A DNA stretch of 57,329 bases from Bacilli bacterium (GTDB taxonomy: Bacteria > Bacillota_I > Bacilli_A > RFN20 > CAG-826), in the NCBI GenBank assembly GCA_017447305.1, contig JAFSNY010000039.1, positions 1 through 57,329 of the forward strand. The letters are read 5' to 3'. The translations under genes were made by a program, and so were the position numbers. Below the pieces are notes generated by a model. The model ran no database searches, had not been told where the DNA came from, and saw only the letters and a list, made by a program, of their open reading frames with translations. Every line of letters starts with the position of its first letter. The stretch's first letter is position 1. This document shows, one piece after another, positions 39,601 through 47,814 of the stretch.

Positions 39601-39747
39601 TTCTTCCCAATGGTTTATAAAGATGCGATAAGAATTACGGACAAAAATAATATCATCGCTATCAGTGGTCACTTTGAAGATAACAAAGGTGAAAAGAGTT
39701 TTATTGGTGAAAGTGTTAGCTTATTGGAGGAAATAGATCATGCCTAA
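36682..39747 (+). CDS. dnaE: DNA polymerase III alpha subunit (DnaE) with degenerate PHP domain
   Basis: DnaE is a replicative polymerase. In 1021 residues it has a PHP domain (1-200), a palm domain with GLRGSAAGSLVTHLLG and the catalytic aspartates of PDIDIDF (near residue 366), fingers with GIFQLESSGMK and a GFNKSHAYGYALLSCQMAYLK motif, a helix-hairpin-helix, and a C-terminal OB domain. The PHP metal ligands are altered: LHIYSAYS instead of LHxHSxYS, and TDLG instead of TDH-G. At 1021 residues it is shorter than E. coli DnaE (1160). It overlaps polA by 8 bases. Confidence 0.96.
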   Translation: MRFAPLHIYSAYSFLKSGLTTERIISSVMKNKYFGAAITDLGVMYGIPEFIKSMEKIKHPFVVGMEIELEGNHYGLYALNEEGYINLCKISSSIQNKSFDKNTLLEHKNGILSIVDTSLGEIKNKFEDVLLDETDLARYVNELSKMFEKFYLGVELKERNELEYVRTIRKFAKEHTYEKVAFPHIKYQNKDDAIVLTIVEAIANDEKITKKSETGNECFLTLEDYQRIYAADEMENTCKIIEMSTFNFHKKRGEMLHFTKSKSDTYLKTLCFDALKEKGLADNPLYIERLNYELDVIHSMGYDDYFLLVQDYVNWARSQNILVGLRGSAAGSLVTHLLGIAPLDPIENNLNFERFLNPARKTMPDIDIDFMDSRRNEVIEYCREKYGRDKVANIITYQSILAKQSLRDIGRIYDYPTRHIDLLSKTLSDPKLSLRESYRKIPAFKELVDSDKYFLEIVSFSSKIEGLIRQSGLHAAGIILNSNPISDILPVTYDLSDNIISQYEMGYLEEQGILKMDFLGLTHLSVVASCVELINERHPDAKLDLFHLPYDDEKTYEIIRSLQTMGIFQLESSGMKNAIKIIKPTTFNDVAALLALFRPGPMREIKSYSKRKAGLEPIPKMSKDQEKILGQTYGIIVYQEQISELAVAMAGMKMSDADNFRWAVSKKKIELLSSMKEAFINGSINNGYSKEEATDYYDRIEKFAFYGFNKSHAYGYALLSCQMAYLKAYYPLEFYSIILKSSSSTNDTKFNEYISEMKKRNIMIVSPNINRSSFDFEICDEGILFPLNAIRGINILTSEKIVEERKNGDFSDFFDFVGRMFIHKINESQISRLIDAGAFDELHPSRTSLRNSIQIALQYAELAYDENGQLSLSLGLEKPALVESKDDPIDNLDKEYEAIGIMLSDNPLRYKKEIIERENIYTIEQALLLEEENYRKTFKVAGIVRNKKVINTKAGSPMAFVKIFDETSEMEVIFFPMVYKDAIRITDKNNIIAISGHFEDNKGEKSFIGESVSLLEEIDHA

Positions 39748-42334
39748 ATTAATTGTCATTGATGGTTATTCGCTTCTCTTTAGAGCGTACTACGCGACCG
39801 CATATCCAGGCGTCGAGATTATGAGATGTAAAGATGGCACTCCTACCAACGCGATTTTTGCTTTCTCCAATATGATTAATAAGATTCTTTCTTCATTAAA
39901 GGAAGGAGAAGCTATTTTTGTTGCTTTAGATGCGGGTAAGCCAACCTTTAGACATGAAGCCATGGAAACATATAAGGCTAACCGTAAACCAGCACCTGAA
40001 GATTTAGTGCCACAGTTTGCTATCGTTAGAGAATTCTTAAACGCGATGAATATCTATAACTTCGAAGAAGAAGGTGTTGAAGGTGATGATATTGCAGGCA
40101 CAGTCGCAAAGAAAGCCGAAGCTGAAGGATATGATGTTTATATCTACACTTCTGACCGTGACTTTATCCAACTTGTCAGTGATAAGATTTCTATCAATGT
40201 TATTCGTAAGGGTTTATCCGATGTCGTAGTAATGACTCCTTCATTAGTCAAAGAAGAATATGGGTTCGAACCTCTCCAAATCATCGATTATAAAGGTTTA
40301 AGAGGAGACTCATCTGATAATCTTCCTGGCATTCCAGGTATCGGAGAAAAAACAGCGGTTAAATTAATCCAAGAATATGGAAACTTTGAAAATATCGTCG
40401 CTCACGCAGAAGAGATTGGCGGAAAAATTGGAAAGAGTTTAATCGAGAATCAAGAGACGGGAAGACTTTGTCGTGATCTTGCGATTATTAAAACTGATGT
40501 TGAACTTCCATTTAGCATCGAAGATACGATTTATCATGGTTATTCATTTGAAAAAATCAACACTTTTGCGCAGAGATATGAACTAAAACAATTCATTTCC
40601 AAAGTCGCTCCTAAATGGAAAAAAGCTGATGAAACAATCACCGATTTAAAAGCGGAAGTTTTAACCTCTTTTGCTGATATTAAAAAACCTGAAGAACTAT
40701 CGATCGCTATCGACTTAGAAGGCGAAGATTATACGAGAGACGCTCTTATTGGTATCGCAATTAATGTTAACGGTCGTCACATCTACATGAGAATTGAAGA
40801 TGTCGTTAAAGATGAATACCTGAAAGCGATATTAAAAGATACAGACGTCAAGAAATATTGTTATGATTTCAAAGCAGTTAAGGTTGCTTTATCAAGATAC
40901 GACATTGAAATAGATGGCTGCATCTTTGATTTACTTCTTGCTGCCTATTTACTCGATCCTTCACCAAAGAGTGATGTTAATAGCGTCATGAATTTCTTTG
41001 GTGTTGATATTCCTAAATCTCAGGAAGTAAGTTTATTACAAGAATTCAATCCTCAAAGACCATTAAGAATTGCATTTTATTCGAGGATGCTATACGAAAA
41101 AGTGAAGAAAGAGATGCAAAAGACTGAAGTTTTAGACTTATTTAATACTTTAGAAATGCCTCTTGCGAACACTTTAGCGAAAATGGAAATTGAAGGTTTT
41201 CCGCTTGATTCAAAGACCCTCGATTCTTTTGGAGATGAATACCGCGCTAAGATGGCGGAATATGAAGAATTAATTTATAAACTCGCTGGATATAAATTCA
41301 ATCTTAATTCTCCAAAACAATTAGGAGAACTACTCTTTGATAAATTAGGACTTCCAAATAATAAGAAAGGATCCACTTCTGTTGAAGTATTAAAAGACCT
41401 TATCGATAAACATCCAATCGTTCCTTTAATTATGGAATATCGGAAATACTTTAAGCTTGTTTCCACTTATATTGATGGACTAAAGCCTCACATTTTAAAG
41501 GACGGAAAAATCCATGCGAAATTCAATCAAGCTTTAACCTCCACTGGGCGTTTGTCATCAAGCGAACCAAACTTACAAAATATCTCGATTCGTGACGAGG
41601 AAGGAAAGATGATTAGGAAAGCATTTTTCTATCCTGATGATAATATAGAAATCCTTTCATTAGATTATTCACAAATTGAACTTAGAATCCTTGCTTCTTT
41701 ATCAAAATGTAAAGGATTACAAGAGATCTTTGAATCTGGAGAAGATATCCATTCCGCGACCGCGAAAAAAGTATTCCACCTCGAAGGAGAACCAACCGCT
41801 AGTCAAAGAAGACAAGCCAAAGCGGTGAACTTTGGAATTATCTATGGAATATCAGATTGGGGACTTTCCGAACAAATTGGAACTAGCGTTGTTGAAGCAA
41901 GAGCGATTATTAATCAGTTCTACGCCTCTTTCCCAGAAGTTATGGATTTCTTTAAGAGCATTATCGCTAATGCGACCAAAGATGGATATGTTTCCACGAT
42001 TTTAGGTCGTAGAAGATATTTAAGAGAGCTTAATGATTCTAACTATGCGACACGAGAATTTGCTAAACGAGCGGCGATGAACGCTCCTATTCAAGGAAGC
42101 GCTGCTGATTTAATTAAACTTGCAATGATAAAAGTTGATAAACTATTAGAAGAATACAATTTGCAAACTAAAATGGTTTGCCAAATCCACGATGAACTTA
42201 TCTTTAAAGTTCCTAAAGAAGAAAAAGAAAAAGTTTATGGTCTTGTTAAAGAGACAATGGAACATGCGATGGAGCTTGATGTTAGTCTTGAAGTCGATGG
42301 AGGATTTGGCAAAGATTGGTACGATGCTAAATAG
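39740..42334 (+). CDS. polA: DNA polymerase I
   Basis: PolA fills gaps and removes primers. The 864 residues contain the 5'-3' exonuclease (1-290; VIDGYSLLFRAYYA, GDDIAGTVA, DSSDNLPGIPGIGEKTA), a reduced 3'-5' exonuclease-like domain (290-460) and the polymerase with motif A LSLDYSQIELRILA, motif B RRQAKAVNFGIIYG and motif C CQIHDELIF. In the middle domain IAIDLEGE keeps a D-x-E pair, but the Tyr/Asp site of motif Exo III is not obvious (IAFYSRMLYEK), so proofreading may be lost, as in Bacillus PolA. The gene lies between dnaE and mutM. Confidence 0.96.
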   Translation: MPKLIVIDGYSLLFRAYYATAYPGVEIMRCKDGTPTNAIFAFSNMINKILSSLKEGEAIFVALDAGKPTFRHEAMETYKANRKPAPEDLVPQFAIVREFLNAMNIYNFEEEGVEGDDIAGTVAKKAEAEGYDVYIYTSDRDFIQLVSDKISINVIRKGLSDVVVMTPSLVKEEYGFEPLQIIDYKGLRGDSSDNLPGIPGIGEKTAVKLIQEYGNFENIVAHAEEIGGKIGKSLIENQETGRLCRDLAIIKTDVELPFSIEDTIYHGYSFEKINTFAQRYELKQFISKVAPKWKKADETITDLKAEVLTSFADIKKPEELSIAIDLEGEDYTRDALIGIAINVNGRHIYMRIEDVVKDEYLKAILKDTDVKKYCYDFKAVKVALSRYDIEIDGCIFDLLLAAYLLDPSPKSDVNSVMNFFGVDIPKSQEVSLLQEFNPQRPLRIAFYSRMLYEKVKKEMQKTEVLDLFNTLEMPLANTLAKMEIEGFPLDSKTLDSFGDEYRAKMAEYEELIYKLAGYKFNLNSPKQLGELLFDKLGLPNNKKGSTSVEVLKDLIDKHPIVPLIMEYRKYFKLVSTYIDGLKPHILKDGKIHAKFNQALTSTGRLSSSEPNLQNISIRDEEGKMIRKAFFYPDDNIEILSLDYSQIELRILASLSKCKGLQEIFESGEDIHSATAKKVFHLEGEPTASQRRQAKAVNFGIIYGISDWGLSEQIGTSVVEARAIINQFYASFPEVMDFFKSIIANATKDGYVSTILGRRRYLRELNDSNYATREFAKRAAMNAPIQGSAADLIKLAMIKVDKLLEEYNLQTKMVCQIHDELIFKVPKEEKEKVYGLVKETMEHAMELDVSLEVDGGFGKDWYDAK

Positions 42335-42342
42335 GAGAAGAT

Positions 42343-43755
42343 ATGCCTGAACTACCAGAAGTAGAAACGATTAAAAACCTTCTTAAACCTCAACTTGTTA
42401 ATCGTAAGATTATAAGGGTTGATATTTTAAGAGAGAAAACAATCCTTGGAGATCCAAATGTTTTTAAATCTTCTTTGGAAGGAGAGATGTTTTTAGATGT
42501 TTCTCGTATTGGTAAATATTTAATCTTCCATTTAACTAATGAAATTGTCTTTATTTCCCATCTTCGTATGGAAGGGAAATATTTTGAATATCATAAAGAT
42601 GAACCAAGCACAAAACATGCGCGAGTTATCTTTTATTTAGATGATGATAGAAAGATTATCTATGATGACTCTCGCTGCTTTGGAATTATGAAATTATCAA
42701 ATGAAAAGTCCTATAAAAATGAAGAAGAAATATCTAAATTAGGACCAGAACCATTTGATATAAAAGATGTCGATTATCTAATTAAGAAAACAAAGAAATC
42801 GGCCTTACCAATCAAGAGTGTTCTTTTAGATCAAACGATTATGACCGGTTTAGGAAATATCTATGTTGATGAAACACTATTTAGAAGTAAAGTTCACCCA
42901 CTTAGAAAAGTTAATTCCATCACTAAAGATGAATGGAAAAAGATATTAGATGATTCCATCCTCGTTTTAAATAATTCCATCAAAGCGGGCGGATCCACAA
43001 TCCGTTCATATCACCCAGGAAAAGGAATCGATGGAAACTTCCAAACCGAGCTTCTTTGCTATGGACACAAAGGAGAGAAATGTCCAGAATGTGGACACGT
43101 CTTCCACTTCATTAAAGTTGGTGGCAGAGGAACGACATTCTGCCCGATGTGTCAAGTAGAAAAGAAGGATAAATTAGTTATCGGAGTAACTGGTAGAATG
43201 GCCGCGGGAAAAAGTGCGTTATTAGAGTATGTCAAATCACTTGGTTATCCAATCATTTCATCCGATGATATCGTCGAGGAACTTTATCAATCGAATGGAG
43301 ATATATATCAATTAATTAGTGAAAAACTTAATATTTCATTTGAGAGAAATTATGTCGATAAGGCTGTTTTAAGGGAACATCTCATCAAGCATCCTAAAGA
43401 TAAATCTAAATTAGAAAAAATCGTTCATCCTCTCGTGAGGAAATATATTAATAAATGGGTTAACGTACAACATGGTGGATTAATCTTTGTTGAAGTGCCT
43501 CTTTTATATGAATCTAAGATGGAAGAAGACTTTGATTTTATCATCGCTTTAGATGTTAATTTAGATATTCAAAAAGAAAGATTAAAAAAGAGGAACGAGT
43601 CCTCTTATCATGATTTGTTAATTATTAATCGCAATAACGCTTTTGACGATTATTCTCACCTTGTTGATTTCCTTATAAATAATAATAAAGATAAAGAGGA
43701 TTTATATCGTCAAATCGATAAGGTGATTAATACACTCCAACATCACCTAAACTAA
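42343..43755 (+). CDS. mutM-coaE: fused formamidopyrimidine-DNA glycosylase and dephospho-CoA kinase (MutM-CoaE)
   Basis: Residues 1-272 are a complete MutM: the catalytic start PELPEVETI (Pro2, Glu3), GKYL with Lys58, MTGLGNIYVDE, SYHPGKG and the zinc finger CPECG ... FCPMC (247-270). Directly after it, without a stop, residues 278-470 are CoaE: P-loop GVTGRMAAGKSALL (281-294), SDDIV in place of the usual DADxI, IVHPLVRK, and FVEVPLLYE. MutM removes oxidised guanine from DNA; CoaE makes coenzyme A from dephospho-CoA. In many Bacilli polA, mutM and coaE are neighbours, so the fusion probably arose by loss of the intergenic stop. The 3' end overlaps the converging dnaI by 29 bases. Confidence 0.93.
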   Translation: MPELPEVETIKNLLKPQLVNRKIIRVDILREKTILGDPNVFKSSLEGEMFLDVSRIGKYLIFHLTNEIVFISHLRMEGKYFEYHKDEPSTKHARVIFYLDDDRKIIYDDSRCFGIMKLSNEKSYKNEEEISKLGPEPFDIKDVDYLIKKTKKSALPIKSVLLDQTIMTGLGNIYVDETLFRSKVHPLRKVNSITKDEWKKILDDSILVLNNSIKAGGSTIRSYHPGKGIDGNFQTELLCYGHKGEKCPECGHVFHFIKVGGRGTTFCPMCQVEKKDKLVIGVTGRMAAGKSALLEYVKSLGYPIISSDDIVEELYQSNGDIYQLISEKLNISFERNYVDKAVLREHLIKHPKDKSKLEKIVHPLVRKYINKWVNVQHGGLIFVEVPLLYESKMEEDFDFIIALDVNLDIQKERLKKRNESSYHDLLIINRNNAFDDYSHLVDFLINNNKDKEDLYRQIDKVINTLQHHLN

Positions 43756-44635
43756 TTTCTTTTTTACATTCGTTTCGAATGATTTTGAAGATTCTTTCCG
43801 CCTGAATTTGGGCGATTTTATTTACGGAATAAAGCGTTTCAATTTGCTCGATTGAATAGTCGGAAGTAAAGATGGTAAATAACTTCTTAGCACTTCTTTT
43901 GATAATGATTTGCATGAGGATAGCGTCTCTAACGAAATCATTTTTATATTCACTACCGAAATCATCGATAACTAAGACTTGGCATGTCGAATATAAATCG
44001 AGCATTTCTTGGAACTTTCTCTTGTTGCTATAGGAGAGGTCGTTAAGCTCTTTAAATCTTAAAGCGGAATTCATAAAGCAAAGAGGGCCTTTCTTTTGTC
44101 TAGCGATATCAACAGCAATACTCGCGGCTAAATAACTTCTTCCGGTATTTGCTTCACCATTGATGAAAATCCATTCATCGGAGACATCTTTAAGATAGTT
44201 AACGTATTTTTTGATGACTTCTTTTCTGGCTTTCGTTTGATCAATTAAACTCAAGTCGTTAGCGATCCAAGCGTCATCAAAATCTCTCACTCTGAATTTA
44301 CCTTCGATTTCCACTTTGTCCAAAACTCTTTTACAAGGGGTCAATTCCCTTTCTAAAAAGCCAAAGTGATAAACGAGTTTGGTGATTAACAAAGGATTGT
44401 CTTTTTTACAATTTTCAATGCCTGGACATTTTGAACAGTAATTTAAATCCTTAACAAGGTCATAGACTTTGACGATGTTTTTCTCAATTACATCATCTGG
44501 CACTCCTAAGTCTTTGAGATATTTAATGGCTTTTGGACAATCAAGATATGCTTGTTTCATCTTGATGTACATCTCTTCATCATCTAGAGATGAAAGGATA
44601 TTTAAATCTCTAATTTTGTCTTTAACATTATCCAT
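43727..44635 (-). CDS. dnaI: primosomal protein DnaI (helicase loader) with altered Walker A
   Basis: DnaI loads the replicative helicase. The N-terminal domain has a zinc cluster (C67, C70, C76 and nearby His/Cys), and the C-terminal AAA+ domain has Walker B LVIDDFGSEY (221-230) and IFTSDYS. The Walker A loop reads GEANTGRS, where the nearly invariant lysine is arginine (Arg166, codon AGA at 44138-44140). I start at the ATG at 44635, preceded by AGGAGG and overlapping the end of dnaB by 8 bases. Length 302 matches the family. Confidence 0.93.
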   Translation of the reverse strand: MDNVKDKIRDLNILSSLDDEEMYIKMKQAYLDCPKAIKYLKDLGVPDDVIEKNIVKVYDLVKDLNYCSKCPGIENCKKDNPLLITKLVYHFGFLERELTPCKRVLDKVEIEGKFRVRDFDDAWIANDLSLIDQTKARKEVIKKYVNYLKDVSDEWIFINGEANTGRSYLAASIAVDIARQKKGPLCFMNSALRFKELNDLSYSNKRKFQEMLDLYSTCQVLVIDDFGSEYKNDFVRDAILMQIIIKRSAKKLFTIFTSDYSIEQIETLYSVNKIAQIQAERIFKIIRNECKKEISLGDVGVY

Positions 44636-45905
44636 CTCGTTCGCCTCCTCTGATATCATTCATTAGTTCATCCCAAGAAACATCATCTTCTTCGGATTCT
44701 TCCACTATCTCTTCTTTAGTTTCATTAGTCGTGGATTTGACTTCCTTGGTTTCTTTCTTTCGTTTATTCTTTGTTATCTTTTTAAGATAATTCATCGCAT
44801 CAATAACGGTGGTTATTCCTTCTCGAGCTAAAGAAGCAGCGATCTTCTCGGTGTAAGCTCTAGAAAGGATATTATTGTTGACCGTTAGGACATAATCGAT
44901 GAGGGCATTAATTACACCGGGGGTAAGATGGAATTTTGCACTGAGGTCATCGATTAAGCGAAGATCGCTGCTTGCAGGGGTAGCCCCGCCTTGAAGGATG
45001 GTCAGAAACTCCTTGGGGGAAAGAGTTTCCATCAGATTAATCTTATGTGCTAGGTCACTATCACTAGTCACCTTTGCAGTCTCTTTTCGATGCATTGATG
45101 ATAAGAAGCTGTAATTGGTTTCATTTTGAAGCATGGTTGCCATCTTCTTAAAATCAATACGATTACCTTTAGGTAGGCTTGGATCATATAAGTGACTAAC
45201 GATATTCGCCGCGCTTAATTCATCCACACCATAAAGGGCACATTGTCTTTCGATTTCTTTGAGTTCTTTTTTCGTTAAGCTATCTTGGGTAATTTGTGAG
45301 ATAGACGCTAAAGCTTCAAAGAAACGATCATAGTTGAATTCGGAGTCGATCTTTGCGGTTTTCCTTCCACGATTCTTCGATTCCTTAAGTGTCTTAGCAA
45401 AGATTGGATCGTCGAAGTCTGGATGGAATTCTTCTCCGAATGACTTAGAGATTTCCACTCCTTTTTCTTCATCGACATCTTCGTTGTAGATTGACTTTAG
45501 TCTGTTAGCGTCTTTTTCTCCGATATACTTAATGAGCATTCCGTATAGGAGTGTATTATCGAAGAAGGACTTTGGAGTTTTTGGAGCGTATATCTCGTAA
45601 TAGTAAGTTTTGATTTCTTCAGCAGCGCCTGAGAGGAAGGTTTTAAGTAATCCCACCGCTTCTAATGCGCCTCTTGCTTTTAAAAACTCCTGGGTCGAGA
45701 TTTGCATTCTCACTAATAGTTGCTCATGAGTGGAAACATTGGTAATCTTTTGGTTTTTTGCCTCATAAAGTAAGGACATGTAAAGAGCGCTACCAGATGC
45801 TCCAATCAGAGGTTGATATAAGTTAAAAATCGTTTCCTTATCGTAATCGGCGATGAGGGATTTTCTTTTAACTTGGAAGATGTCGTTTGGTGAGAGGATA
45901 ATCAT
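44628..45905 (-). CDS. dnaB: replication initiation/primosome protein DnaB (Bacilli type)
   Basis: This is the DnaB of Bacillus, not the helicase: a primosome component that works with DnaD and DnaI. The N-terminal winged-helix part (LYQPLIGASGSALYMSLL) and the C-terminal DnaD-like domain are separated by a linker; the end is highly acidic (KEEIVEESEEDDVSWDELM). A length of 425 residues is normal. It is the first gene of the dnaB-dnaI operon, which in Bacillus subtilis also precedes thrS and infC. DnaA boxes lie directly upstream. Confidence 0.88.
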   Translation of the reverse strand: MIILSPNDIFQVKRKSLIADYDKETIFNLYQPLIGASGSALYMSLLYEAKNQKITNVSTHEQLLVRMQISTQEFLKARGALEAVGLLKTFLSGAAEEIKTYYYEIYAPKTPKSFFDNTLLYGMLIKYIGEKDANRLKSIYNEDVDEEKGVEISKSFGEEFHPDFDDPIFAKTLKESKNRGRKTAKIDSEFNYDRFFEALASISQITQDSLTKKELKEIERQCALYGVDELSAANIVSHLYDPSLPKGNRIDFKKMATMLQNETNYSFLSSMHRKETAKVTSDSDLAHKINLMETLSPKEFLTILQGGATPASSDLRLIDDLSAKFHLTPGVINALIDYVLTVNNNILSRAYTEKIAASLAREGITTVIDAMNYLKKITKNKRKKETKEVKSTTNETKEEIVEESEEDDVSWDELMNDIRGGERDG

Positions 45906-46262: not shown

Positions 46263-46739
46263 ATGAATAAATTTTTTCAACTTTTGCTAAAAAACAAAAC
46301 TCAATTCATTTTGAGAATTTCGTTATTGCTTTTCACAACTTTACTTATCATCGTCTCGGTTTATAACTTGCATTTTCCTTTGATAAGAAGCGTATCTAAA
46401 TACGATGGTTTGCCTGATGTTTATAAGTTATTATTCTATAGCCTTGCGATTGGATCTAATGTCTATAATGCACACCAAAGTGAAGTGTATGATTTTATCC
46501 TAGATTCAATGGCGATTGAATGTATTGTCGTATCAACGATTTTCATGATCCTTCAAATTTCTAATTTGATTAAGAAGAGAACTAGCATTACTTATCCACT
46601 ATTTTTAGTGGGATTTATCATTCACTTTATATGTAGATTATCAAACAACGAATCAAAGGTATTTATAGTACTATTTTTAGCGGTTTTCGCCTTGATATTT
46701 TTTGCCATATTTTTCTTTCTTATATCACTACTCAGTTAA
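46263..46739 (+). CDS. small membrane protein of unknown function
   Basis: The 158-residue protein has a basic N-terminus and about four hydrophobic spans (residues 18-38, 90-105, 116-130, 136-155). It shows no motif that I recognise. A weak ribosome site (AGGGCG) precedes the ATG. It is followed after 4 bases by a second membrane protein gene, and both seem to be transcribed from the promoter near 46100. Confidence 0.65.
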   Translation: MNKFFQLLLKNKTQFILRISLLLFTTLLIIVSVYNLHFPLIRSVSKYDGLPDVYKLLFYSLAIGSNVYNAHQSEVYDFILDSMAIECIVVSTIFMILQISNLIKKRTSITYPLFLVGFIIHFICRLSNNESKVFIVLFLAVFALIFFAIFFFLISLLS

Positions 46740-46743
46740 GGAA

Positions 46744-47814
46744 ATGTCTATCGAGCAGAAAACAAGACTATACTATTTTGAAAATCGTTTCTCTTTATTA
46801 TTTTTTGCATTCTCTTCAGTGATCATGGTCTCCGTTTTGTTAAGGAGATTCGCTAAAGCATTGGCCGCTGCACTTTGGGGTGATAGCAACATTGAGAATT
46901 TTAACGAGATCGATTCAGTATTAATCGGGTATCACACTTTTCTAAGAATACCATCATTGTTTCAAGTTATTTTCATCGTCAATTTTGTGTTTTTGATCTT
47001 TACAGTATTCAGAAATTACAAATTTAAGATACAAAATATCGCTAAAAAGAGTTATTCGCTTTTAGATAAAATTGAAATAGCTTTAAAAGCTTTGTTAATT
47101 GTTCTTAGCTTCGTTTGTATTGTTTATGTTTTAGGGTTCGACATTTTTGAATATCGCTTTTTTCAAGGTCAAAATAATTTGCTAATCATCCTTCCACTGA
47201 TGATGAATTTTAATACTTTGGGTTGCTCTTCTTTTGCAACTAACTTTGCTATGGAATTCTTATATTTCATGTTGGTAATAAACTTATTCTTTTTCCTAAG
47301 TGTGTTGGTCGTTAATGGAATTAAAAAAGAAAAGAATTATATTTTTGAATCAATTGCATATTCCTTAATGCTTCCATATCTAATCTACTTTATTAAAATC
47401 GAGTATTTTTTAAGTCTAACGGGTCTTAGTTCAATTAATTATGCATTTTTTAATGGGTTATTTAATTGTCTAATATCGATATTGTTACTTCCGTTTCCAC
47501 TATTTTTTATCTATAGAAAGTATAAAGATTCAGATTCAAAGACTTTTCTAAAAGATTCGATTAAGTCCACCATAATTGTGGGTTCAATCGTAACTATATC
47601 AATCCTATTTAATTTGATAATTTTTATCATCGTTAATAAATTTGACAACCCTTCTGAATTAATACTTTGTTTTAAAGATAATTATCATCTAAACATTTCT
47701 GAAAGATTAATTGCCCCAGTTTTCTTTATATCAATACCACCACTAGTGTCCTTAGTTTGGGCTTTGATTAATTATCATCGACAAAGCAATACAAATACTA
47801 TAATCAATAACTAA
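46744..47814 (+). CDS. polytopic membrane protein of unknown function
   Basis: The protein starts MSIEQKTRLYYFENRFSLLF; the frame is open further upstream to 46702, but that part overlaps the previous gene, and AAGGAAATG supports the ATG at 46744. About eight hydrophobic spans separated by short polar loops fill its 356 residues. No transporter or enzyme signature is visible. With the preceding gene it forms a two-gene unit inserted between dnaB and pfkA, where other Bacilli have housekeeping genes. Confidence 0.65.
   Translation: MSIEQKTRLYYFENRFSLLFFAFSSVIMVSVLLRRFAKALAAALWGDSNIENFNEIDSVLIGYHTFLRIPSLFQVIFIVNFVFLIFTVFRNYKFKIQNIAKKSYSLLDKIEIALKALLIVLSFVCIVYVLGFDIFEYRFFQGQNNLLIILPLMMNFNTLGCSSFATNFAMEFLYFMLVINLFFFLSVLVVNGIKKEKNYIFESIAYSLMLPYLIYFIKIEYFLSLTGLSSINYAFFNGLFNCLISILLLPFPLFFIYRKYKDSDSKTFLKDSIKSTIIVGSIVTISILFNLIIFIIVNKFDNPSELILCFKDNYHLNISERLIAPVFFISIPPLVSLVWALINYHRQSNTNTIINN

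Follow-up and report, generated by a model that had tools for sequence, protein, structure and literature searches.

In the window, the whole 57,329-nucleotide stretch of DNA that we analysed, a single gene encodes both the DNA-repair enzyme MutM (Fpg) and the dephospho-CoA kinase CoaE. The frame is continuous, both domains are complete, their catalytic residues are conserved, CoaE is present as a single copy and the fusion recurs in other genomes. Judged from its sequence, the gene is probably an operon-derived, end-to-end fusion giving one bifunctional polypeptide with the predicted activities, for which no coupling was seen. The mechanism behind it is probably an ordinary one, and the product is most likely one bifunctional enzyme.

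Organization of the fused gene

The gene and its surroundings contain the following features.

39740–42334, + strand: polA (DNA polymerase I), directly upstream of the fusion, 8-nt gap
42333–42338, + strand: Shine-Dalgarno (SD)-like AGGAGA, read from the sequence, overlapping the polA stop and 4 nt 5′ of the ATG
42343–43755, + strand: mutM-coaE fusion gene, 470 aa, ATG to TAA
42343–42690, + strand: Fpg N-terminal catalytic domain (PF01149), residues 1–116, with conserved P2, E3 and K58
42739–43008, + strand: H2TH DNA-binding domain (PF06831), residues 133–222
43072–43155, + strand: Fpg zinc finger (PF06827), residues 244–271, with Cys 247, 250, 267 and 270 and R262
43156–43173, + strand: junction VEKKDK, from the zinc finger to the first CoaE strand, without in-frame ATG, GTG or TTG
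43174–43722, + strand: CoaE (dephospho-CoA kinase) domain (PF01121, TIGR00152), residues 278–460
43192–43215, + strand: Walker A motif (P-loop) GRMAAGKS, G284–S291, from sequence and residue conservation
43621–43653, + strand: CoaE lid segment, residues 427–437, in which N431 and Y437 replace Q-x5-[K/R] in the alignment
43727–44659, − strand: DnaI-like helicase-loader gene, convergent with the fusion, named by its neighbourhood and a weak IstB match

A preliminary description had read this frame as a complete Fpg glycosylase with its zinc finger followed by a complete CoaE. Sequence and translation bear this out, as there is no in-frame stop within the 470-aa frame and both halves exceed the cut-offs of curated profiles. 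Full-length MutM was matched by residues 1–271 (NF002211, 276.9 bits against a cut-off of 212; TIGR00577, 271.1 against 203.3, zinc finger PF06827 included), and CoaE by residues 278–460 (TIGR00152, 111.3 against 65.55; PF01121, 90.3 against 27). Between 43150 and 43190 the window reads CPMCQ-VEKKDK-LVIGVTGRMAAGKS, with neither a stop nor a frameshift. The protein begins with MPELPEVET, which supplies the N-terminal Pro nucleophile and Glu3, and Lys58 is also present. Gaps aside, MutM residues P2, E3, K58, M76, R111, F113, N172 and R262 and the zinc cysteines are kept in the fused rows, and CoaE residues G284, G289, K290 and D308, belonging to the Walker A motif GxxxxGK[ST] and the catalytic Asp, are kept in 69/69 of them. 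The N-terminal half would be a glycosylase/AP lyase that excises oxidised purines, and the C-terminal half would phosphorylate dephospho-CoA.

An AF2 model of the full-length protein had a mean pLDDT of 91.6 and a pTM of 0.82, and its confidence was also high at the junction. Its MutM half superimposed on DNA-bound MutM (1r2y) over 270 residues at 1.6 Å (Z 36.5). Two fold comparisons with the full-length model listed MutM-type chains alone, and they therefore bear on the MutM half and not on the CoaE fold. Structure prediction of CoaE alone, without an alignment, gave a poor model (pLDDT 47.5).

Among solved structures, the MutM half is closest in sequence to Lactococcus Fpg and the CoaE half to dephospho-CoA kinases of bacteria. 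Known MutM/Fpg enzymes (1tdz of Lactococcus lactis, 1r2y) share with the window protein their full length and the catalytic, H2TH and zinc-finger residues, but they end after CxxCQ, whereas the window protein runs straight into CoaE. Similarly, the CoaE half has the P-loop, the catalytic Asp and the whole-domain match of the kinases 8dv0 and 1jjv, but it lacks a start codon of its own, carries an N-terminal MutM and, in this order, has the lid motif replaced. CoaE also lies within a larger polypeptide in the eukaryotic bifunctional CoA synthase (2f6r) and in long CoaE proteins (PRK03333/6n39 type). There CoaE is joined to a CoA-pathway enzyme or to another domain, whereas in the window protein its N-terminal partner is a DNA-repair enzyme.

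NCBIfam has an equivalog for each half, and we saw none for the fusion; nor did we find a paper describing a MutM-CoaE fusion among open-licence PMC papers. One published remark suggests that a CoaE may be concealed under the MutM name, and the paper itself states no fusion. Since the MutM model scores highest, naming by best score would hide the CoaE half, and such naming can make CoA synthesis seem incomplete in these uncultured Bacilli.

Recurrence and proposed origin of the fusion

The preliminary description had proposed looking for the same fusion in relatives. Searching 58 genomes, consisting of the source genome, its family and its order, recovered it as one open frame in 42, the source genome included. 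One further fusion (G046) was broken by a contig end, and another (locus L035 of genome G051) was open except for an in-frame TAG at codon 8, which could reflect a pseudogene, recoding or a sequencing error. Ten genomes lacked the fusion, having either adjacent but separate genes or, at this site, a mutM with no coaE beside it; four gave no match to the fusion query. Of 245 sampled genomes of the order, 233 matched the fusion query, and nearly all of the matches listed had both halves in one frame. Although the window genome is fragmented (88 contigs), there is next to no chance that an assembly or sequencing artefact deleted a stop codon, because dozens of genomes that were assembled independently, including single-contig ones, have the same uninterrupted junction.

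Seven further families of the class, from outside the order, also have the fusion in an intact frame (f12, f16, f19, f25, f26, f27 and f28). Genus g89 of f16 includes single-contig genomes and groups near Acholeplasmataceae. Among 392 genomes sampled from the phylum, without a breakdown by class, the strong matches listed all belonged to this class. The earlier remark that mutM and coaE are neighbours in many other Bacilli agrees with the sampled genomes; in Streptococcus, Staphylococcus, Enterococcus, Lactobacillaceae, Paenibacillus and Exiguobacterium the genes are separate and often adjacent.

We placed 131 MutM+CoaE loci in a quick tree built without bootstrap. It contained 13 changes between the fused and unfused states, gains and losses together, at least nine of which are forced by well supported branches, and a topology that groups all fused rows was rejected (p-AU 2e-44). 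The suggestion that the fusion marks a clade therefore stands only in part: almost all members of the window's family and of two related families have the fusion, but its occurrence in the seven other families and the tree reject a single-origin marker. The fusion is recurrent and most likely operon-derived, and not the marker of one clade; the window's family consists of uncultured Bacilli. Genome G533 contained a second fusion copy (L140) that grouped with the fusions of family f3 and may represent contamination of the bin.

Unfused relatives show the state expected of a precursor, in which an in-frame stop is followed within a few codons by a start, mostly with an SD sequence. Unfused MutM terminates just past CxxCQ, and in the fused proteins the first CoaE strand starts a few residues on. 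Among Bacilli, mutM and coaE are commonly a tandem pair after polA; they often share a frame, the mutM stop being only a few codons 5′ of the coaE start. We propose that this stop was lost by a point change or a small indel, so that the Gln ending the MutM zinc finger was followed almost at once by CoaE strand 1. polA is on the same strand as the fusion at 70/71 fused loci. Fusion most likely occurred repeatedly because mutM and coaE already adjoined in one operon, and repeated gain would be an easier direction than loss, given that the unfused precursor is tight and in frame.

Recurrence to this extent (at least nine changes) could also be a sign of selection for the fusion, for instance if 8-oxoG repair and CoA supply were useful together under oxidative stress, with CoA as a thiol buffer. 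Loss of the GO system (MutM, MutY and YtkD) in B. subtilis was accompanied by a rise in CoaE protein of about 9.5-fold (PMC10968225), a lead for such coupling but no proof of it. However, the rise in CoaE may be an effect of the mutM deletion on the adjoining gene, a shared substrate or interface is not in evidence, and since mutM and coaE are tandem neighbours, chance loss of the stop accounts for the recurrence equally well. We therefore regard selection for functional coupling as unlikely. It is distinctly unlikely that repeated selection, through co-regulation or by linking redox state with CoA and repair, was combined with a changed CoaE lid and altered control in this order. As to the coupled regulation raised in the preliminary description, we found no evidence of it beyond co-translation. 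Favouring the bifunctional enzyme, we infer that both predicted activities are present, that the protein remains uncleaved and that cells tolerate the fusion, without selection for a functional link. Fused and unfused relatives form a natural set for asking whether fusions of unrelated neighbouring genes are neutral or selected.

A probable single polypeptide and the state of its CoaE half

The fused genes probably derive from separately translated genes, and internal initiation or proteolysis might still free a separate CoaE. A start codon between the end of MutM and the P-loop was present at 28/28 unfused in-frame loci, mostly an ATG with an SD match. Any ATG, GTG or TTG was found in this interval at 22/71 fused loci, and only three of these 22 had an SD match of at least four bases; one fused locus (L155) retains a junction ATG with a 6-base match. 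The window has none of these codons between residue 271 and the P-loop. Its zinc finger does contain an ATG (M269), but this residue is rarely conserved and lacks an SD sequence at normal spacing. As a start with an SD sequence is rare at fused junctions (3/71) and absent in the window, internal initiation is unlikely as a general rule; we reject it for the window and consider it possible at a few loci only. The junction is about six residues long in the window (VEKKDK) and two to three in some relatives, other fusions reading HVA or KSY at this point, and the AF2 model predicts the window's junction to be ordered. The sequence thus gives no support to the earlier suggestion of linker cleavage, there being hardly any linker to cleave; the halves are joined end to end, without a linker domain. 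Release of two products is accordingly very unlikely.

The source genome (92% complete) contained no second PF01121 match and no second place matching the fusion query. A coaD match was above the cut-off and no coaBC match was found. With CoaE in sole copy, coaD kept and coaBC not found, the fused CoaE is probably needed by the cell, and the route to CoA probably runs from salvaged phosphopantetheine through CoaD to the fused CoaE. As a counter-point, four family members that are 96–97% complete (G004, G025, G085 and G088) had neither a fusion match nor a PF01121 match. The absence of both halves may reflect true loss or missing contigs, and is surprising if the enzyme is essential.

In Bacilli the CoaE lid often carries the motif Q-x5-[K/R], but this motif is not established as a defining feature. 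It is absent from 28/28 rows of family f1 and from all fused rows of f2, f3 and f5, and R413 is likewise often lost. It is also absent from the sole unfused f6 row, and is retained in unfused f8, in the fusions of other families and in nearly all other CoaE rows; the lid change therefore tracks lineage, not fusion. Because the motif is lacking in this order, the activity or specificity of the CoaE half could differ. End branches were also slightly longer in fused rows (CoaE to MutM ratio 2.50 versus 2.15; p = 0.02, with kinship ignored), a small effect by which fused CoaE may evolve faster. That the CoaE half has ceased to be a normal dephospho-CoA kinase, whether altered in specificity or declining, is nevertheless highly improbable: the Walker A lysine and D308 are invariant among the fused rows, TIGR00152 was matched by 38/38 aligned members, and the genome retains coaD and this sole PF01121 match.

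At its 3′ end the fusion overlaps the convergent DnaI-like gene by 29 bp (43727–43755). Elsewhere in the window, at 46263–47814, two ORFs with no Pfam match adjoin one another, and both look hydrophobic.
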